Made by a program: the position numbers and the translations under genes. A DNA stretch of 64,000 nucleotides from Echinicola soli (GTDB taxonomy: Bacteria > Bacteroidota > Bacteroidia > Cytophagales > Cyclobacteriaceae): NCBI RefSeq assembly GCF_006575665.1, contig NZ_CP041253.1, positions 1,927,501 through 1,991,500 on the forward strand. Direction: 5' to 3'. A model generated the notes under the pieces. The model saw only the letters and a program-made list of their open reading frames with translations. It made no database searches and was not told the DNA's origin. This document shows, piece after piece, positions 50,835 through 63,608 of this stretch (within the stretch, counting starts at the first letter, position 1; every line of letters starts with the position of its first letter).

Positions 50835-50963
50835 ATGGTCAGAGTAGATTCATGGGGGAGCATATCAGTGGACTTGTTGACCGTCGTCAGTGGGCAATTT
50901 CCAGCATATCCCTTGGATGAAGAGATCATCGGAAATATTGCGGATAATTTGAAAATAAAATGA
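50835..50963 (+). CDS. Tiny ORF (42 aa) overlapping the GH78 start
   Basis: ATG at 50835 opens 42 codons (MVRVDSWGSISVDLLTVVSG... ADNLKIK) ending in TGA at 50961-50963, which overlaps the GH78 start as ATGA. The arrangement would allow translational coupling. Composition is protein-like, but no family is recognised. It may be a leader peptide, the tail of a degraded gene, or chance. Confidence 0.35.
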   Translation: MVRVDSWGSISVDLLTVVSGQFPAYPLDEEIIGNIADNLKIK

Positions 50964-53176
50964 CCACTCAGAAGAAAAACAATAAACCTCAGATGGAAAC
51001 CCGAAAATATACCATTCTCTTATTACTTTTTGTGATGTGCTTTGCTACTGTAAAGGCGCAGGAAAAAGCCCCTCAAGCCACTTGGATATGGTATCCAGGA
51101 GATTACGAGATTTGGCTGAGCAATAAAATGCAGGCCCGGAGAACTGAGCGGGGTGCTTTTTTGCCACCTTTGTGGCGGTATTACAGCCCTTATGCATTGG
51201 TGACCTTCAGAAAAGAATTTACGCTTCCTGCTGAAGATGAAATTTCCATCTTTACAGAAGGTCAGTTCAAACTTCAGATTGATGGAAAGCAGCAGCATGG
51301 ATCTTCACAAAAAGTAACCATTCCTGCTGGCAAACATAGCATTGTCATTAAAGTATATAACCAAGAACGTGTGCCCGCAGTGTTTATTCAGGGTGACCAT
51401 TTGGTGACAGATGAAAGCTGGAAGGTGACTTTTGAAGATAAGGAGTGGATTGATGAGACGGGAAAAGCTTCGGATCAGTCCGGGACCAACTGGGAAGCGG
51501 TAGGAACCTGGAATTTCAATACCCCCGATGATTTGCCCTCTGCGTTTAGGCTGGCCACCACACCACAATATGCCAAAGAAGTGACACCTGTAGGGGAGGG
51601 CGAATTGGTCGATTTTGGTAAAGAGACCTTTGGTTATATCCGATTCCATGGACTGAAGGGCGAAGGAAATGTCAATGTCTATTACGGGGAGTCGGAAGAA
51701 GAGGCCTTGGACAGTGCCTTTTGTGAAACCCTCGATTACCTGAGTTTTGATGGCCGTCAAGAAACTGAATATACGATCGAAAATTCCAAAGCCTTTCGCT
51801 ATGTGCAGGTGCAGCATGATCCAGGAGTGAGCTACGATTCTGTTTCGATGCTTTATGAATACTTGCCTGTGGAATACCGTGGAGAATGGAACAGTTCGGA
51901 TGAACTGTTGAATGAGATTTGGGATGTATCGGCTTATACCATGCATCTGAATACCCGCGAATTTTTTCTGGATGGCATCAAACGTGACCGTTGGATCTGG
52001 TCGGGGGATGCCTATCAGAGCTACCTGATGAATTACTACCTGTTCTTTGATAATGCTTCTGTTCGGAGAACACTGCTGGCATTGCGTGGCAAGGAGCCGG
52101 TTTCAAGTCATATGAACACCATTATGGACTATTCTTTTTACTGGTTTGTGGGGATATATGATTATTACCTGTATTCCGGTGATGAAGCATTTATCAAGAA
52201 CTTTTACCCTCGAATGGTAAGTATGATGGACTTTTGCCTGGAACGAAGGAATGAAAACGGTATGATGGAAGGCCTGCCGGGAGATTGGATTTTCATCGAC
52301 TGGGCTGATGGGCTGAGCAAGCAGGGAGAAGTGAGTTTTGAGCAGATGTTGCTGGCAAGAAGCCTGGAAGCCATGGCAGTAAGTGCGGAGATTGCCGGTG
52401 ATCAGGAAGGGCATGAGAAATACCAAAAACTTGCAGATGAAATGAAAGCCAAGCTGTTTGAAGTGTTTTGGTCGGAAGACCGGCAGGCGATCATGCACCA
52501 GCGCGTCGATGGTAAAGTGCTCGATAATGTCACCCGCTATGCCAATATGTTCGGGATATTCTTTGATTACTTTTCCAATGACCAAAAGCAGTCCGTCAAA
52601 CAGTCGGTTTTGCTGAACGACAATGTCCAAAAAATTACCACACCCTACATGCGGTTTTATGAGCTGGAAGCACTATGTGCCATGGGTGAGCAGGAATTTG
52701 TGCTGGATGAAATCAGGGATTACTGGGGGGGAATGCTGGATCTTGGGGCCACTTCTTTTTGGGAAAAATATGATCCGGGCGAATCCGGTGCCGAGCACTT
52801 GGCCATGTATGGAAGACCTTATGGTAAGAGCCTTTGCCATGCTTGGGGAGCCAGTCCTATTTACCTGTTTGGAAAATACTATTTGGGTGTAAAGCCCCTT
52901 TCGGCAGGCTATGAAACCTATGAAATCAGTCCTGTGCTGGGAGGTTTGGAATGGATGGAAGGGAAAGTGCCTACACCTGATGGTGATATTTCCGTGTATT
53001 GCTCCACCAAAGAGATCAAGGTCTCTGCTGATCATGGACAGGGCATCCTGAAGTTTAAAAGTAAGTCCAAACCGAAAACTGACCACGGTCAGATCAAGGC
53101 TTTGGGCAATGATGAATATGAATTGGTGATAGCCGCAGGGAAAGAATATATGGTGAAATATAAGGCGGTGAAGTAG
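50960..53176 (+). CDS. Alpha-L-rhamnosidase-like enzyme, GH78
   Basis: A 738-residue secreted GH78 protein (signal to about residue 33, VKAQ; a second ATG at 50993 would shorten the n-region). N-terminal beta domains (35-300) precede the alpha/alpha barrel. The GH78 acid motif reads REFFLDGIKRDRWIWSGDAYQ in two parts: FFLDGIKRDR (335-344) and WIWSGDAYQ (345-353). Asp338 and Asp350 are conserved, while the position usually Glu is Asp343. GATSFWEKYDPGES near 600 supplies the second carboxylate. A C-terminal beta-sandwich follows. It would release rhamnose ends from pectin side chains or RG fragments. Confidence 0.88.
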   Translation: MTTQKKNNKPQMETRKYTILLLLFVMCFATVKAQEKAPQATWIWYPGDYEIWLSNKMQARRTERGAFLPPLWRYYSPYALVTFRKEFTLPAEDEISIFTEGQFKLQIDGKQQHGSSQKVTIPAGKHSIVIKVYNQERVPAVFIQGDHLVTDESWKVTFEDKEWIDETGKASDQSGTNWEAVGTWNFNTPDDLPSAFRLATTPQYAKEVTPVGEGELVDFGKETFGYIRFHGLKGEGNVNVYYGESEEEALDSAFCETLDYLSFDGRQETEYTIENSKAFRYVQVQHDPGVSYDSVSMLYEYLPVEYRGEWNSSDELLNEIWDVSAYTMHLNTREFFLDGIKRDRWIWSGDAYQSYLMNYYLFFDNASVRRTLLALRGKEPVSSHMNTIMDYSFYWFVGIYDYYLYSGDEAFIKNFYPRMVSMMDFCLERRNENGMMEGLPGDWIFIDWADGLSKQGEVSFEQMLLARSLEAMAVSAEIAGDQEGHEKYQKLADEMKAKLFEVFWSEDRQAIMHQRVDGKVLDNVTRYANMFGIFFDYFSNDQKQSVKQSVLLNDNVQKITTPYMRFYELEALCAMGEQEFVLDEIRDYWGGMLDLGATSFWEKYDPGESGAEHLAMYGRPYGKSLCHAWGASPIYLFGKYYLGVKPLSAGYETYEISPVLGGLEWMEGKVPTPDGDISVYCSTKEIKVSADHGQGILKFKSKSKPKTDHGQIKALGNDEYELVIAAGKEYMVKYKAVK

Positions 53177-56346: not shown

Positions 56347-57234
56347 ATGATAAAAAATACCAACGACGGAACGAACGTAACCCCTTATCTGAGGGTGGAT
56401 ATGAATTATGGGGGATGCAATGATTTGCCTGATTTTTCATCAGGGCCAAAAGGTGAAGATAGGGAGAAGCATGAGGCCATCAAGCAAGCGGGCTTTCAGG
56501 GGATTCAGGATGGAGACCCCACTCTCTGTAAGGAGCTGGGCTTGGAACTGACGGCCCATGCGAGAATGAATGCGGTGGGAGAGTTGGATGAGTTATTGCC
56601 CAAGTGGAAAGACGACGGGTATAACTGTGCCACGCTGCATGTAGGCTGGGGCATGGAAGATGACGATGAGGTGAACCGGCTGGTGGAATACGTGCTGAAC
56701 AGCTCGGTAAAGTTTGATTTGCCCATTTATATCGAAACCCACCGAGCCACCATCACCCAGGATATGTGGAGGACAGTAGCGCTGACCAAACGCTTCCCGG
56801 AAGTGCGGTTCAATGGCGACTTTTCCCATTGGTATACCGGTCAGGAGATGGTCTATGGAGGGGTAGAGAATAAATGGGAATTTATCCAGCCGGTGTTTGA
56901 CAGGGTGAGGTTCATGCATGGCAGGATCGGTAATCCAGGCAGCATCCAGGTGGATGCAGGGAATGGTGAAAACCAAAGCTATGTAGACCATTTCAAGGAA
57001 ATGTGGACCAGGGCTTTTCAGGGCTTTTTGAATTCTGCGGAAACAGGGGATTATATCTGTTTTGCGGTAGAGTTGTTACAAGCTGATATTTTCTATGCCC
57101 GGACCTTCAAAAATGCCAATGGCCGGGAGCAAGAGGAGGGGGATCGCTGGCAACAGGCTTTGCTGTACAAGCGGTTGGCAGAAGAGTGCTGGAAAAAGGC
57201 AATGGAGAGAAGTAAGTATCAAGATGCTAGATGA
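56347..57234 (+). CDS. Sugar isomerase/epimerase-like TIM-barrel protein (cytoplasmic)
   Basis: From ATG 56347 the product has 295 residues and no signal. The frame is open back to 56191, but that part lies in the hairpin repeats, so the inner ATG is used. It has the xylose-isomerase-like metal site in order: Glu130 in YIETHRAT, Asp158/His161 in NGDFSHW, His191 in MHGRIG and Glu242 in AVELLQ. It differs in sequence from the Tat lipoprotein homologue at 19647. Likely converts an imported sugar or sugar acid; substrate not determinable. Confidence 0.82.
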   Translation: MIKNTNDGTNVTPYLRVDMNYGGCNDLPDFSSGPKGEDREKHEAIKQAGFQGIQDGDPTLCKELGLELTAHARMNAVGELDELLPKWKDDGYNCATLHVGWGMEDDDEVNRLVEYVLNSSVKFDLPIYIETHRATITQDMWRTVALTKRFPEVRFNGDFSHWYTGQEMVYGGVENKWEFIQPVFDRVRFMHGRIGNPGSIQVDAGNGENQSYVDHFKEMWTRAFQGFLNSAETGDYICFAVELLQADIFYARTFKNANGREQEEGDRWQQALLYKRLAEECWKKAMERSKYQDAR

Positions 57235-57562
57235 TAAACATTTAGAAACGGGAGGCTGTCTCACCCGCCTTGTCGGATCCCTTCCGGATCAGAATAACCT
57301 GCCCCGTATGACTATCGGGGACATACGATTCCAATTTATGAGACAATCTCTTTTGAGATCGAGGTGTTTGCAATTCGTGTTTTTTTCCATGTCCAGATTT
57401 CTGATTTTTCTTCCCTTTTTCCAAATACTTTTGTAGAAAAATTTGAAAGCTTAAATTTAGTATATTTACTAAATAGTTTGGGTTTGATCGGTTATACTTA
57501 GTTTATTATATAGAAAAACAAGAGACTTTAACTAAGTTCAGGGAAGGGCAAAAACACAATTT
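57235..57562. other. 328-bp spacer at the border to the AT-rich island
   Basis: The first half has repeat pieces (GAGGCTGTCTCACCCGCC, GATCCCTTCCGGATC, CCCCGTATGACTATCGGGG near 57302-57320). From about 57420 the DNA turns AT-rich. At 57455-57474 ATTTAGTA/TACTAAAT forms an inverted repeat with a 4-base gap, about 90 bases before the ATPase start, a candidate operator or promoter element. Confidence 0.5.
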
Positions 57563-58963
57563 ATGATTACATACATAAAGATAAATGGCTTCAAATCATT
57601 TCATAATTTTGAAATGGAATTCACCCCTTTTACAATTATAGCGGGAGCAAATGCATCAGGTAAAAGTAATCTTTTTGACGCACTTATGCTCTTGTCAAGA
57701 TTGGCTGAGGTAGATTTGAGGACAGCTTTTTCTGAGCAAAGGGGGAATGCGATAGAGCTTTTTACCATGTATGATGAAGGTATTTATTCCAAAACAATGG
57801 ATTTCACCGTAGAAATGCTCTTGAATAGAAAAGTAAAAGATAAATGGGGAGGAGAAGAGAATTTAAATAATACACGGTTAAGATATAATCTAAGTATTAG
57901 TAGAAAAGAGAATAGGCTAGGTTTTGAGGATTTGTTTATAACACATGAAAGTTTGGAGAAAATCAGGCCTTTGGAAGATAAATGGCAAAAGAAATTTGAA
58001 GATGCCAGTATTTTTTCTAGAACATTAAGAGCTGGTGGTTCAAGAGAACCTTTTATCAAAACGACAAAAGAAGGAGAAAAAGTTGCAATAAAGATCAGGC
58101 AGGATGGAAAACAAGGAGGGAAAGTCACGCCAGCGGATACCATTTCACAAACTGTTTTGGGAGGAATAGTAAATGTTGATTTCCCCCATGTTTACGGCGC
58201 AAAAGAAGAGATGTTATCTTGGAAATTTCTTCAATTGAATCCGAAGCATTTGAGTGAGCCAACGAATCAGGAACCTGGAATAAAGGATGAAATTACGTCA
58301 AGTGGAGCAAATTTAGCTTCAACTTTGTATCGGGTTTCTTTAGAAGATGGGGTGGCAATTAGAGAAATTTCAAGGAAACTGAATTCCTTTTTACCTAATT
58401 TCACCAGGGTAAATATTATTGATGATAAACCCAATAGGCAATATATCATTAAACTGAAAGGAGTAGATGGAAAGGAATATTCATCAAGAGTTTTGTCAGA
58501 AGGCACATTGAGACTGTTGGCACTATGTGTACTTGAGCAAGATCGAAGACATACCGGCTTATTGTGTTTTGAGGAACCTGAAAACGGAATTCATCCTTAT
58601 CGTTTACAGACGATGCTTGATCTGCTTAAGGATTTGACCGCTGATTTTAAAGAAACCGAAATGCCCTTAAGGCAGGTTATTGTTAATACACATTCCCCTG
58701 TTTTGATAAACGAAATAATAAAATGGAATGATAGTGGATTAGTATCAGTTAATTTTTCTGAAATCAGGACAAATATTGTTAATACGGAATATGGTAAGAA
58801 GAAGCTAAATGCTACCCGAATACTTCCTGTGATTAAAGATATTTCAACTCAGGAGACTATTGGATTTTCTTCTGCTGATAGAAAGCTCACAATTGCTACC
58901 GTTAAAAAATACTTGGAAACAGTTGATTTTGATGAATCTACAAGTCTTGTTAACAAATTATGA
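57563..58963 (+). CDS. AAA-family ATPase (OLD/AAA_21-like)
   Basis: A 466-residue ABC/SMC-like ATPase. MITYIKINGFKSFHNFEMEF is the classic start, and the Walker A is GANASGKSN (28-36). A long insert (about 75-210) precedes the signature region VLSEGTLRLLALCVLEQ (about 312-328). Walker B is LLCFEEPENGIHP (about 332-344), and the switch region is VNTHSP (about 373-378). Such ATPases pair with TOPRIM nucleases in OLD/PARIS-type and related anti-phage modules. The next gene overlaps it by 32 bases and is TOPRIM-like but broken. The coding sequence is more AT-rich than the pectin genes, suggesting separate ancestry. Confidence 0.9.
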   Translation: MITYIKINGFKSFHNFEMEFTPFTIIAGANASGKSNLFDALMLLSRLAEVDLRTAFSEQRGNAIELFTMYDEGIYSKTMDFTVEMLLNRKVKDKWGGEENLNNTRLRYNLSISRKENRLGFEDLFITHESLEKIRPLEDKWQKKFEDASIFSRTLRAGGSREPFIKTTKEGEKVAIKIRQDGKQGGKVTPADTISQTVLGGIVNVDFPHVYGAKEEMLSWKFLQLNPKHLSEPTNQEPGIKDEITSSGANLASTLYRVSLEDGVAIREISRKLNSFLPNFTRVNIIDDKPNRQYIIKLKGVDGKEYSSRVLSEGTLRLLALCVLEQDRRHTGLLCFEEPENGIHPYRLQTMLDLLKDLTADFKETEMPLRQVIVNTHSPVLINEIIKWNDSGLVSVNFSEIRTNIVNTEYGKKKLNATRILPVIKDISTQETIGFSSADRKLTIATVKKYLETVDFDESTSLVNKL

Positions 58964-59630
58964 TACAATTTTTATAGGACTTTTTACTGAGGGGACTACA
59001 GATCTAAGATTCTTGAAAAATGTAGTAAAAAAAGCTTTCGTCGATATTGGCTTTATGGAATGTAGCAGTGAGATGGAATTTGATATTAAGGAGGTCAGAA
59101 TCGATAAATCTGGGTTGGATTTCAATACTCAAGTTTTAAATGCTTCAAGATATGGTGTTGACAATTATGGAATATCGATATTGTGTGTACATTCAGACGC
59201 TGATTCACCAAATAAGATCTTGGCCAATCAAAAGGTATCAAGAGCTCTTGAAAATTTGAAGAATTCTCAAGAGGAGTGTTGTGAAATAATTACACCGATT
59301 ATTCCTGTTCGAATGACCGAAGCGTGGATGATAGCTGATAAAGATTTGTAAAAATATCATTTAGGTACGGATAATGCAGATAGCTTGCTAGGACTACAAC
59401 GGAGACCAGAAATGTATGCAGATCCTAAGGAAGCCATAAGAGGTGCTATTCGAATCGCATTTGAAGGGAAGCCCAGGAGGAGAAAAAATGAAATTGAGAT
59501 TTCTGATTTGTATCAAATAATAGGAGCTGAAATAGAACTGGAAAGGTTAAGGAATTTACCATCTTATAAAGATTTCGAAAATGCAATTCGGCATAGTTTA
59601 GCTGAATTAGGTTATTTGGCGAAAAAATAG
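58932..59630 (+). pseudogene. DUF4276/TOPRIM-like partner of the ATPase, interrupted by an in-frame stop
   Basis: The likely start is ATG 58932 (MNLQVLLTNYDTIFIGLFTEGTTDLRFLK), overlapping the ATPase end by 32 bases. IFIGLFTEGTTD is the conserved acidic TOPRIM-like start and ILCVHSDAD the second acidic motif. The sequence PVRMTEAWMIADKDL then meets TAA at 59349-59351. It resumes in the same frame with KYHLGTDNADSLLGLQRRPEMYADPKEAIR and ends in TAG at 59628-59630. So a single codon splits a gene of about 232 codons. Either one nonsense mutation inactivated it, or a 139-residue N-terminal product is made. Confidence 0.82.
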
Positions 59631-59640
59631 AACACAATCA

Positions 59641-59808
59641 TTTACTGAGTTTGATCCTGTAACACTGTTAAAATCATTGATGGAGGAATACCATTTAAAA
59701 GCACAGGATCTGGTTGGAATTCTTGGTTTTTCCAAAGGCTCTGTTTCAAAAATCCTGAATTACCACAAAGGGCTTTCCAAAGAAACCATAAGGAAATTGT
59801 CCGCTTAA
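59641..59808 (+). pseudogene. HigA-type (XRE) antitoxin fragment
   Basis: The frame reads FTEFDPVTLLKSLMEEYHLK, then AQDLVGILGFSKGSVSKILN, then YHKGLSKETIRKLSA and a stop at 59806. This is the helix-turn-helix of HigA-like antitoxins: helix AQDLVGILG, turn FSKGS, recognition helix SVSKILN. The N-terminal part is missing and the usual tail after RKLS is gone. An ATG at 59680 could start a 42-residue piece. No HigB toxin is next to it. It belongs to the same decaying island as the ATPase pair. Confidence 0.7.
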
Positions 59809-60284
59809 ATAAACGCGATTTAAAATACCGTCATAGCGAGGAAGTATAGCCTGTCCCGAGCTATCGGGAACGTGGCAATCCCGTATTAAGAAAACGAGAT
59901 TGCTTCACTCCGTTGCTCTGCATTCGCAATAACGGATTTATACTGATTTTATAATCTACACATTCCTATTGCTACATTAAAGAGAAATATGCTTACCAAA
60001 ACCACCTGGAAATCTCTCATCTTCCAGAAATATTGCTTGGTCCTCAAAATGTGCTAAAAAGGAGGCAAGCGAAAAAGTTGAGGGCATGAATCCCTTTATT
60101 TTAAAAGGATTTCTTTTTTGTTTTTTTTGCCACAAAGATTCTAAGGCCCAAAGCTGTTTGTTTTCCATGAAATTTGGAATCCGCCTACAAAAAACTTCGT
60201 GTCTTGGCGACTTCGTGGCGACATACCAAATGAATATAAATCTTCTCCCGCCCCCAGAAATATTGCTTGATCCCTTTTATCCTG
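59809..60284. repeat. Spacer with palindromic repeat and fragment repeats
   Basis: A degenerate CGTCATTGCGAG-family copy fills 59829-59934, with an AGCCTGTCCCGA/ATCGGGA hairpin nested inside it (about 59847-59871). A 20-base sequence (CCAGAAATATTGCTTGGTCC, 60024-60043) recurs with one change at 60254-60273. A common intergenic text (CTTCGTGTCTTGGCGACTTC) lies at 60195-60214. No intact gene. On the minus strand both 20-base copies read DQAIFL, perhaps from duplicated gene remnants. Confidence 0.55.
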
Positions 60285-60412
60285 AAAATAGAACCAGAAG
60301 TTATTGGTGATATTCAGGAAGGGATCGATTGGTATGACCAAAAACAACCAGGTCTGGGGAACAAAATTTTTTAAAGAAGTAAATAGTTTTTTCAACAAGT
60401 TACAGAACAATC
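60285..60412 (+). pseudogene. RelE/ParE-family toxin, N-terminal remnant
   Basis: The frame reads KIEPEVIGDIQEGIDWYDQK then QPGLGNKIF, typical of RelE/ParE toxins. It hits a stop at 60372-60374 because of one extra A in the run 60363-60366. In the corrected frame KEVNSFFNKLQNN continues up to the IS66 insertion. The start codon is not recognisable. The matching C-terminal part lies beyond the IS at 62844-63012. Confidence 0.8.
60405..60412. repeat. Left target-site duplication of IS66 (GAACAATC)
   Basis: GAACAATC directly precedes the IS left end and is repeated at 62844-62851 directly after the right end. Eight bases is the usual IS66 duplication length. Confidence 0.92.
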
Positions 60413-60483
60413 GTAACCTCCTTATAAAGTACATATTTCATTGACGGGTTTGATCGCATAGCTTTGTGGAAAAAGCAAAAGTG

Positions 60484-60771
60484 ATGAACCTAGAAGAAGA
60501 AATGGCCGCCCTGGTCGAAGAGTTTAAAACGACCGGTCTAACGCAGAAGACCTTCAGTGCACAAAAGGGGATCGGTTATCCCAAGTTTAATTATTGGTAC
60601 CGAAAGCTGGAGGGGGAACACTCCCGGGAACCCACTGGTTTTCTACCGGTCCGTACCCGGGGCAGCAGTCTTCCAGCAGAGACAGTGGAAGTGGTCTATC
60701 CGAACGGGGTAAAGCTGCGGGTGCCTGGCGGGGACCTATCGCTGTTGTCGAACCTGATCAAACTCTACTGA
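60484..60771 (+). CDS. tnpA: IS66 accessory protein TnpA
   Basis: About 95 residues from ATG 60484 (a GTG at 60466 would add six). EFKTTGLTQKTFSAQKGIGYPKFNYWYRKLE (read as EFKTTGLTQKTFS and AQKGIGYPKFNYWYRKLE) is the helix-turn-helix typical of IS66 TnpA. The tail VEVVYPNGVKLRVPGGDLSL is the usual C-terminal signature. Its stop overlaps the tnpB start by one base (TGATG), so the two are translationally coupled. Needed with TnpB for efficient IS66 transposition. Confidence 0.92.
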   Translation: MNLEEEMAALVEEFKTTGLTQKTFSAQKGIGYPKFNYWYRKLEGEHSREPTGFLPVRTRGSSLPAETVEVVYPNGVKLRVPGGDLSLLSNLIKLY

Positions 60772-61112
60772 TGTTTTCACTGGGCTCCCAGCACCAATAT
60801 TTCCTGTACCGCAGCCCGGTGGACATGCGCAAAGGATTTAATGGGCTTTACGGGATGGTCATCAATGAACTGGACCGGGACCCGGTTTCCGGGGAGGTGT
60901 TCGTCTTTGTCAACCGCAACCGCAACCTGATCAAACTCCTGCACTGGGAGAAGGGCGGTTTCGTGGTCTATTATAAACGCCTGGAAAAAGGCACTTTCCT
61001 GCTCCCGGAGGAGCGGGACGACGGCGTGTTGGAATGGCCCGAACTGGTGCTGATGGTCGAGGGCATCCAGGTGGACGGCTACCGGCAGCGTCCCCGCTAC
61101 ACCCCCGGTTGA
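60771..61112 (+). CDS. tnpB: IS66 accessory protein TnpB
   Basis: A 113-residue protein starting at ATG 60771. The upstream open frame overlaps tnpA and is rejected. YFLYRSPVDMRKGFNGLYGM, DPVSGEVFVFVNRNRNLIKL and LLHWEKGGFVVYYKRLEKG are the standard IS66 Orf2 blocks. Length is normal and the gene is intact. Confidence 0.95.
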   Translation: MFSLGSQHQYFLYRSPVDMRKGFNGLYGMVINELDRDPVSGEVFVFVNRNRNLIKLLHWEKGGFVVYYKRLEKGTFLLPEERDDGVLEWPELVLMVEGIQVDGYRQRPRYTPG

Positions 61113-61280
61113 TTTTTTTACTGACCGGTGTTCAGCTTTTTGGAGCCGTATGCGCTCCTATTCGCTCCATCAGGTGTTTTTTGAAGTGAAATGGCCGAAA
61201 CCATCCCTTGAGGGCTTTTTCCACAGGGGATGTGGAAAAAAAGTTCATGGTTTTATAAGCGGGAGGCTTTATTTTCGGGC

Positions 61281-62831
61281 ATGTCAAAGCCACTCGATCA
61301 GTTGACCAAAGCCGAACTGCTTGCCCTTTTGGAGCAAAGGGAGCAACAGGTGGCCGACCGTGAGCGGGTGATAGCCGAGAAGGAACGTATCCTGGCCGAG
61401 AAAGAAGCTTATGAGAAGCAGCTGTTGGCGATGATCGAGAAGTTCAAGCGCATGTCCTTTGCCCAGAAGCGGGAGCGCTTCGAGGGGAACAAAGACCAGA
61501 TGGACCTGCCCTTTGAGCCTACCCAAGAGCAGGAGCGGCAACAGCAGGAGGAGTTCTCCCGCAAGGTGGAATACATCCGCAGGAAACGCCCCACCCATAC
61601 GGGCAGACAACCCTTGCCCGACCATCTCCCTACAGAAGAGATCGAGATCCATCCGGAAGGCGATCTTACCGGCATGGAGTGTATCGGCAAAGAAGTGACC
61701 GAAGAGTTGGACTATATCCCTGCCCAATATATCCGCAGAAGGTATATCCGTTACAAATATGCACCAAAAGACAAGTACAGCAGTGCCGGGGTAAAGATCG
61801 GCCTGTTACCGGAAAGGGCCATCCCGAAGGGCATCCCGGGTTACGGACTGCTCACCGACATCCTTACAAGGAAATACCTGGAACATATGCCGCTGTACCG
61901 GCAGGCGCAGCGGTTCAAACGGGAAAAGATCCCCATAGCGCCCACCACACTTGAGGGATGGGTGAAACAGGGCCTGGAAAAACTCGAGCCCCTGTACGAT
62001 TGCCTGGTGGCCGACACCAAGGCCATGGGCTATCTTATGGTGGACGAGAGTACCATACGGGTATTGGACGGCGACAAGAAGGGCGCCTGCCATACAGGCT
62101 ACTATTGGGTGTACCATAATCCCCTGGAAAAAACCGTACTGTTCGATTACCGGCCTACCCGGGGAAAGGAAGCCCCCAGTGCCATCCTGGAAAATTTTAA
62201 GGGCTACCTGCAAAGTGACGGGTATGCCGTATATGAACACTACGCCGACAATAAGGAGGTCACCCACCTGGCCTGCTGGGCGCATGCCAGGCGGAAGTAC
62301 TTTGAGGCCTTGGTGGAGAACAAAAAGCTGGCTTCCGAAGCCCTGGGCTTTATCGGCAAGCTCTACGATGTGGAAAGAAAGGCCAAGAAGCTGAACCTAT
62401 CTGCCGAAGACCGTAAAAAGCTCCGTTTGGATGAGGCATTGCCGGTGATCAACAAAATGTCCGAATGGATCAAGAAGCAGCTGCCCAAGGCCCTGCCCAA
62501 AAGCGAGCTGAGAAAAGCCCTGTTCTACTCGGCAAACAGATGGGCCGAGCTGTCCAACTACCTGTATGACGGGGAACTGGAGATCGACAACAACCCCGTA
62601 GAGCGAGAAATCAGATCCATGGTGGTCGGCCGGAAGAACTACCTGTTTGCCGGTTCCCATAAAGCGGCCCAAAGGGCGGCCATGATCTATTCCTTCTTTG
62701 GGATATGCAAGCTACATGACGTGAATCCCCAGCAGTGGCTCGAACATGCGCTGAGAAATATCATGACCATCAACCATAAAAACATCCGGGACTTATACCC
62801 ACAAAACTTCAACCACACAACACGGGGTTAA
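61281..62831 (+). CDS. tnpC: IS66 transposase TnpC
   Basis: A 516-residue DDE transposase from ATG 61281. It has an N-terminal coiled coil (LTKAELLALLEQREQQVADRERV..., about 5-55). Next comes a Lys/Arg-rich region with IRRKRPTHTGRQPLPDHLP. The DDE catalytic core contains MVDESTIRVLDG (first Asp), YLQSDGYAVYEHY (second Asp) and DNNPVEREIRSMVVGRKNYLFAGS (Glu). The C-terminal helix FGICKLHDVNPQQWLEHAL closes it. All signature residues are present; it ends 12 bases before the right IS end. Confidence 0.95.
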   Translation: MSKPLDQLTKAELLALLEQREQQVADRERVIAEKERILAEKEAYEKQLLAMIEKFKRMSFAQKRERFEGNKDQMDLPFEPTQEQERQQQEEFSRKVEYIRRKRPTHTGRQPLPDHLPTEEIEIHPEGDLTGMECIGKEVTEELDYIPAQYIRRRYIRYKYAPKDKYSSAGVKIGLLPERAIPKGIPGYGLLTDILTRKYLEHMPLYRQAQRFKREKIPIAPTTLEGWVKQGLEKLEPLYDCLVADTKAMGYLMVDESTIRVLDGDKKGACHTGYYWVYHNPLEKTVLFDYRPTRGKEAPSAILENFKGYLQSDGYAVYEHYADNKEVTHLACWAHARRKYFEALVENKKLASEALGFIGKLYDVERKAKKLNLSAEDRKKLRLDEALPVINKMSEWIKKQLPKALPKSELRKALFYSANRWAELSNYLYDGELEIDNNPVEREIRSMVVGRKNYLFAGSHKAAQRAAMIYSFFGICKLHDVNPQQWLEHALRNIMTINHKNIRDLYPQNFNHTTRG

Positions 62832-62843
62832 TAGGGCGGTTAC

Positions 62844-63012
62844 GAACAATCCATATTATCAAATCAGGTACGATAACGTTTGTTGTTTGCCGCTCAAAAA
62901 ATTCCTCTAAATGATTCATTTTACAGTGGACAAACAAAACAAGCAAGTGATCATCAGGGCAGTTTATAATACCAAACAAAATCCTAAAATCTGGACTAAA
63001 AGGGAAAAGTAA
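62844..63012 (+). pseudogene. RelE/ParE-family toxin, C-terminal remnant
   Basis: After the right target duplication (62844-62851) the frame reads NNPYYQIRYDNVCCLPLKKFL, a stop at 62908-62910, then MIHFTVDKQNKQVIIRAVYN and TKQNPKIWTKREK to TAA at 63010. Removing the IS and one duplication joins this in frame to the N-terminal remnant at 60285. The stop probably replaces Tyr or another residue before MIHF. Together this is one toxin of about 95-100 residues with three separate lesions. Confidence 0.85.
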
Positions 63013-63608
63013 TAGCATAAATTCCTTTGATATTCCTCAATTTCTAGCATAAAAAAATTATTGCTATTAAGTGCATTATGAATGCTGGCTCACGAAGTCC
63101 TCATTTCAAATGAGGATTAGCGCAATTTTTCAATATTAAAATCTTCCAATTTCCCAACCCTTAAAACTTTAAAAAACTCCCAATATCCTAACTTTTGTAA
63201 CCTTCCAACATTTTAACCCGGATTATACCTTAGGAATCGTAGTAGCCTGTCCTCCCGAAATCCTTCGGGACAGGCTGGCGGATATCGGAAAGAGCTGAAC
63301 GTGCAAGAAAATCAGTTGGTTTGGAGGAGTGAGCGTAGCACCGCTACGGTGTACCCTGTCTGGCCGCCAGGTAAATCCGAAAACTAAAGCGTAGCGGCTG
63401 ATTTTGAAGCAATTTCAGGTCGCAACACTTGTGCGCCGCGGCGTAGATAGGTTTCGGGTTTAACTTTTAAACCTGAACCCCATGATACTACAGGAAGGTA
63501 TTTCTGTTGAGGAAAGTAACTTTATCATTGGATGAAGAATTTGCGGCAACGATCACGGACTGTGGTCTGTGGACTGACAATAATTGCCAATTAGACCAAT
63601 GATTGACC
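63013..63608. repeat. 596-bp spacer with dispersed repeats
   Basis: A hairpin of the GCCTGTCC family (TCCCGAAATCCTTCGGGACAGG, 63253-63275, quoted in parts: CCCGAAAT and TTCGGGACAGG) is followed by the inverted copy of the 8145-8243 element at 63302-63422. Similarity extends to about 63480 (GTTTAACTTTTAAACCTGAA). The first 200 bases after the toxin remnant are AT-rich with no ORF. Low-complexity text such as TCTTCCAATTTCCCAACC lies at 63143-63160. Confidence 0.65.

Follow-up and report, generated by a model that had tools for sequence, protein, structure and literature searches.

We analysed a window of 64,000 nucleotides from the genome of Echinicola soli (contig NZ_CP041253.1, positions 1,927,501 to 1,991,500 of the forward strand) and focus here on two adjacent genes of its forward strand, hereafter named gene A and gene B. 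Gene A (57563-58963) encodes an intact ATPase of 466 amino acids, of the ATP-binding cassette (ABC) type and similar to OLD and AriA proteins. Gene B, its partner, is split into two pieces by a premature in-frame TAA codon (59349-59351). The N piece (58932-59351) encodes 139 amino acids counted from a displaced ATG and contains a predicted TOPRIM core with the acidic motifs EGxTD and DxD. The C piece (59352-59630, 92 amino acids) corresponds to the C-terminal helical region. An ATG is also present where relatives start the partner (58960-58977). It overlaps the stop codon of gene A, is out of frame with gene B and reads MIQFL* (five codons). The two genes are related to HEC-01, a candidate system of the PADLOC collection, and the state of the pair is the subject of this study.

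The HEC-01A profile PDLC04184 of PADLOC-DB covers gene A over profile positions 1-461 of 464, with 446.8 bits, and the runner-up profiles are other HEC-01A models at 127 bits and below. Pfam matches were AAA_21 and AAA_15, and the AlphaFold2 model of the protein has a mean pLDDT (predicted local distance difference test) of 84.1. An earlier note, made from the sequence alone, had described an ATPase with Walker A and CFEEPENG motifs, and this description holds. In an alignment of 28 ATPases, including that of the window, the Walker A motif, the LSEGTLR signature, CFEEPENG and NTHS are invariant save for two nearly invariant positions. By a leave-one-out count, gene A deviates at 4 of 161 conserved columns, the other sequences at 0 to 12 and one at 32. 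The family is large: of 8000 candidates scored, 4763 proteins reached E ≤ 1e-30, and within the best 120 of these matches the closest other ATPase is 72% identical. The host genome is a single contig of 5,550,304 bases in which the region is present once.

The frame of gene B (58932-59630) contains a single internal TAA and is open on both sides of it. The N piece matches positions 3-131 of the 222 positions of the HEC-01B profile PDLC04212 (105.6 bits, PADLOC-DB) and the C piece positions 135-219 (71.1 bits). Since these stretches follow one another on a single profile, the continuity of the frame is more than chance, and the split gene proposed in the earlier note is confirmed. In tblastn searches, exactly one codon separates the N and C matches in all 16 loci where both pieces were found, once residues left unmatched at the start of the C piece are taken into account; among these loci, L003 and L016 coincide. 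In L005 and L006 the N piece was matched and the C piece was not. All 18 aligned relatives have a sense codon where the window has this TAA. The TOPRIM fold is a strand-helix core with a glutamate after strand 1 and a DxD motif after strand 3, and the partner follows this pattern. Among 18 partners, EGxTD is invariant and DxD consists of one invariant and one nearly invariant aspartate; gene B keeps both motifs, as the note had recognised. Its label DUF4276 suits the relatives better than the window: the cutoff is passed by three of four intact relatives tested, while the N piece stays below it (21.0 versus 30.2 bits).

The start of gene B is also altered. Across 23 relatives, the partner start falls within a span from 8 nucleotides upstream to 12 nucleotides downstream of the end of the ATPase gene; L071, left out of this count, has a partner beginning 184 nucleotides after the ATPase stop. 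The in-frame ATG of the window lies at -32 (58932), and the residues that it adds have no counterpart in aligned relatives. The 32-base overlap that had been described as the layout of the pair is thus not the usual arrangement. Since the ATG at the usual position (58960) is out of frame and the TAA is premature, gene B has been hit twice, the second lesion being, from the sequence, a frame shift relative to the usual start. Both genes have otherwise drifted little at conserved positions, gene B retaining most conserved residues before as well as after the stop, which places the breakage recently on the scale of these relatives. For gene B, the window departs at 1 of the 33 columns that at least 17 of 18 relatives share (0 to 3 in the others, leave-one-out); at a threshold of 16 of 18, 5 of 42 columns deviate, one of them being the stop itself. 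As a separate observation, the N piece is most similar to L011 (50%) and the C piece to L007 (57%, with 36% for the N piece), so that gene B is possibly a mosaic gene.

We then considered the state of the partner in 28 loci carrying an ATPase of the gene A subfamily. This set leaves out L044 (a duplicate of L016), L023 (at a contig end) and the distant L006, L046, L070, L060 and L061; L088, from a record filed as phage, was found later than the count and has an open partner. The partner forms one open frame of about 220 amino acids in 24 of the 28 loci. The remaining four comprise L013 with a frameshift, L018 and L022 with no partner, and L073, unreadable through a run of N. None of the 25 relatives readable at the TAA codon stops there, so that the common end point named in the earlier note as an argument against recent inactivation was not found. 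L013 and L018 retain a full-length ATPase match despite the damaged or missing partner, whereas in L022 the ATPase is truncated as well. In L071 the partner is open and the ATPase match has a gap in the profile. The frameshift of L013 (7411-8072, Flavobacterium restrictum) splits the partner elsewhere and is independent of that in the window. Four comparisons of relatives gave ratios of nonsynonymous to synonymous substitution rates (dN/dS) of about 0.04-0.14 for the ATPase and the partner alike; dS mostly exceeded 0.7. The partner search revealed no sister strain of this species: it returned five proteins including the window's own, the nearest other being 50% identical.

Both genes match the HEC-01A and HEC-01B profiles best, and the pair is therefore classed, on sequence grounds, as a HEC-01-type module, a PADLOC candidate system with a predicted defence role. 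They are adjacent on the same strand in the order HEC-01A then HEC-01B, and all seven proteins taken from four relatives (three pairs and one partner) match the same two profiles best. The window pair differs in that its partner cannot be translated as one protein. Given the TAA at 59349-59351 and the out-of-frame usual start, it is filed as an inactivated copy and not as a working HEC-01, that is, as an inactivated member of an already catalogued candidate anti-phage type. According to PMC12988326, the name HEC stands for Hma-embedded candidates; several of these, HEC-06 among them, have proved antiviral, and most others await tests. The original preprint is Payne et al. 2024, as cited in PMC12255303, and HEC-01 is merely listed among other systems in PMC12724379. 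Literature on HEC-01 was otherwise scant, and our search found none for DUF4276; searches on guilt by embedding and on type III restriction-modification with TOPRIM yielded no further leads.

The earlier note had likened the pair to OLD and PARIS modules while placing it clearly in neither; the likeness stands, and the assignment is settled by the best match to HEC-01. PARIS shows the same two-gene split into an OLD-type ABC ATPase and a TOPRIM protein, and AriA profiles match gene A with 103.8 bits (4e-30) and 75.6 bits. Structural matches of an intact partner include chain A of a PARIS complex, a chain that may be either subunit. PADLOC-DB presumably holds AriB models, but neither the window pieces (E ≤ 1) nor four intact partners (E ≤ 0.01) matched a profile of that name. 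As the AriA scores are far below that of HEC-01A and no AriB name was matched, membership in PARIS is not claimed. Proteins of the OLD family (class 1 OLD, GajA) likewise link an OLD-type ATPase with a TOPRIM domain, and the intact partner also has structural matches to OLD C-terminal regions. OLD is, however, one polypeptide, whereas the window and each of the 24 relatives whose partner is open have two separate genes. PMC10568477 and PMC12839542 discuss the splitting of ATPase and TOPRIM into separate genes. For gene A, NCBIfam NF047739 (MAD3 of MADS) gave 140.5 bits (8.5e-41) against a curated cutoff of 420. When the partner profile was run against the sequences of solved structures, one match resulted (E 0.26), and Foldseek with the partner model gave none at E ≤ 0.001.

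To place the pair in its genomic setting, seven syntenic loci were compared with the window by blastn. Three sister species (L038, L039 and L042) lack an insertion of about 6.3 kb: their sequences align to its left and right, with a short spacer alone in place of about 57.2-63.5 kb. The insertion (approximately 57208-63478) contains the gene pair, a helix-turn-helix remnant and IS66 genes. In L037, L040 and L041 the alignment leaves the window at 57.2 kb (L037) or 56.2 kb (L040 and L041) and rejoins it at about 71.25 kb; in L043 it ends at 57.19 kb with nothing beyond. Within the genus, the ATPase of gene A was missing from all 10 other genomes searched (E ≤ 1e-20). The remnant (59644-59808, + strand) abuts gene B and resembles a Cro/C1-type helix-turn-helix protein (Pfam HTH_26, 21.7 bits for a cutoff of 22). 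It has no ATG ahead of an internal methionine and is probably not part of the system of the pair. The IS66-family genes (60466-62831, + strand; NF047593 TnpA and NF033517 IS66 transposase) lie in the same insertion as neighbours of the pair. The genes around the insertion presumably belong to carbohydrate metabolism, judging by inspection of their sequences. Within a scan confined to the nearest neighbours, neither a defence gene nor an Hma system was recognised beside the window pair.

The distribution of related pairs is patchy. With the own genome included in each count, the ATPase was detected in 4 of 390 genomes at the level of the family (E ≤ 1e-30), in 12 of 390 at that of the order and in 4 of 395 at that of the class (both E ≤ 1e-60), and a search of the order keyed on the partner detected 14 of 390 genomes (E ≤ 1e-10). 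Gene neighbourhoods were evaluated by family searches on 15 different neighbour proteins out of 181 flanking open reading frames (ORFs) counted. Defence surroundings, for which the near neighbours of the window copy gave no sign, were found in four relatives. L021 (4102-10731) and L069 (7169-14223) have an N6/N4 DNA methylase gene upstream of the pair, at a distance of 12 and 3 nucleotides respectively, and downstream of it, at 16 and 6 nucleotides, a gene for a type III restriction endonuclease. Their ATPases are 44% identical, and that of L021 clusters (100/100) with four ATPases lacking recognised mod or res genes as direct neighbours, suggesting two separate placements in type III restriction-modification (RM) operons; L069 forms a long branch in the ATPase tree and its placement is unsure. 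The pair of L068 adjoins an MmeI-like enzyme, and L022, whose partner is absent, adjoins DarTG. Next to the pair of L020 is a protein with a nucleotidyltransferase domain, and the neighbour searched in L007 gave no match. Other pairs are embedded among housekeeping genes: between thrA and thrB in L009, L011, L012 and L063, between rsgA and dtd in L010, L013 and L014, and between tsaD and smpB in L016. L010 comes from Flavobacterium filum and L016 from Belliella calami. The neighbours in these operons were identified by family searches for L009, L010 and L016 and named by sequence likeness for the other loci. The thr and rsgA groups each form one clade in the ATPase tree.

Together, we consider it probable that the locus holds a HEC-01-type pair that this genome gained horizontally and whose partner was recently broken. 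With the partner broken and the ATPase intact, the module is most likely inactive. Of the options raised in the earlier note, a recently killed defence system has the strongest support, from the 24 open partners, the lack of shared stops and the limited drift, while its defence status is drawn from the PADLOC candidate label and from the neighbours of some relatives. On the contrary evidence named in the earlier note, homologues with a housekeeping role and no link to defence islands, the picture is mixed: RM or DarTG genes enclose or adjoin the pair in several relatives, and housekeeping operons enclose it in others. The closest worked-out case for a HEC-01 mechanism is, by analogy, PARIS. 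According to PMC12409363, AriA holds AriB inactive until a trigger binds AriA, whereupon freed AriB dimerises and cleaves tRNA, and triggering by Ocr kills the cells. In intact relatives, a complex of the ATPase might similarly restrain the TOPRIM partner. The ATPase would sense a signal linked to infection, and the released partner would cut nucleic acid and abort the infection, as AriA and AriB do. We infer this restraint and release, as well as the nuclease activity, its target and the defence role of HEC-01 pairs. In E. soli, the partner was disrupted by a frame shift at its very start and a stop after the predicted TOPRIM core, the ATPase being kept.

How the partner came to be lost may be viewed in another way. 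An uncontrolled partner could be toxic, and selection could have removed the nuclease and left a harmless ATPase, a possibility that we hold with clear reserve. The damage does fall mostly on the partner, since the window, L013 and L018 keep a full-length ATPase match, and the killing of cells by Ocr-triggered PARIS, as reported in PMC12409363, would fit. The numbers are small, though, and the loci were found via the ATPase, which biases the set against loci with a partner alone. A search keyed on the partner gave one partner fragment, in genome G870, and L022 and L071 show that the ATPase can be affected too, by truncation in the first and by a gapped match beside an open partner in the second. 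The excess of partner lesions over ATPase lesions was consequently rejected as proof of toxicity, the loci being too few and the search keyed on the ATPase. Neutral decay fits the data equally well, and neither loss favoured by toxicity nor neutral loss is preferred on present data.

An error of sequencing or assembly, with the pair in fact intact, is improbable for one or both lesions. The 5' lesion is beside a run of T, and such runs are a typical place for insertion and deletion errors in long-read assemblies; the internal stop, by contrast, occupies the place of a single codon and leaves the frame unshifted. Of 51 sister-species ORFs with matches in this region, 48 align to a single open frame across 90% or more of their length, which disfavours a fault of the assembly. 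These ORFs come from four sister loci, with the same window genes counted more than once. Of the other three, two run off the compared sequence and one, of 207 amino acids, has 157 residues matched inside the open window ORF 50960-53176. A reassigned stop codon is implausible for the same reason, as those 48 neighbouring ORFs are open under the standard code. That the product of 139 amino acids is a functional short form seems very doubtful, even though the stop comes after EGxTD, DxD and all four of the predicted core strands. Eleven of 26 invariant partner residues fall beyond it, all of them retained in the C piece; no readable relative stops there, and the usual start is out of frame. The truncated functional form suggested earlier is accordingly disfavoured. 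Equally remote is a housekeeping module without any link to defence: the thrA-thrB and rsgA-dtd placements speak for it, each of them confined to one clade, and the patchy occurrence and the pairs found in type III RM operons, by the MmeI-like enzyme, next to DarTG and in the phage-filed record speak against it.

A more speculative and rather unlikely proposal concerns the intact pairs. Given the pairs lodged between mod and res of type III systems in two distant lineages, HEC-01 might act as a second-line guard of RM systems, in which the ATPase would sense phage anti-restriction or damage to RM and free the TOPRIM nuclease. In an ordinary operon, away from RM genes, a pair might persist for a long time or shed its effector before the ATPase, of which the window would be an instance. 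As for the window copy, it is a pseudogene of an ordinary sort. It offers an example of a candidate defence cassette that was probably gained and then lost its effector-like gene while the sensor-like gene stayed intact, and the comparison provides leads on the little-studied HEC-01, namely its placement in type III RM operons, the order of its TOPRIM core and its retention in housekeeping operons.

Pairs in housekeeping operons lie on the strand of the operon, and no recombinase gene was recognised directly beside them. Two distant relatives were found in viral contigs (36-39 bits by profile), and a plasmid search gave three records at 36-37% identity. In L088 (2134-4222), an open pair is carried by an unannotated and unverified record from human faeces, of putative phage origin. 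Finally, between L009 (6001-8085) and L012 (771-2849), the ATPases are 87% identical (dS 0.72) and the partners 96% (dS 0.10), and this closer relationship of the partners suggests that the partner was exchanged apart from the ATPase.
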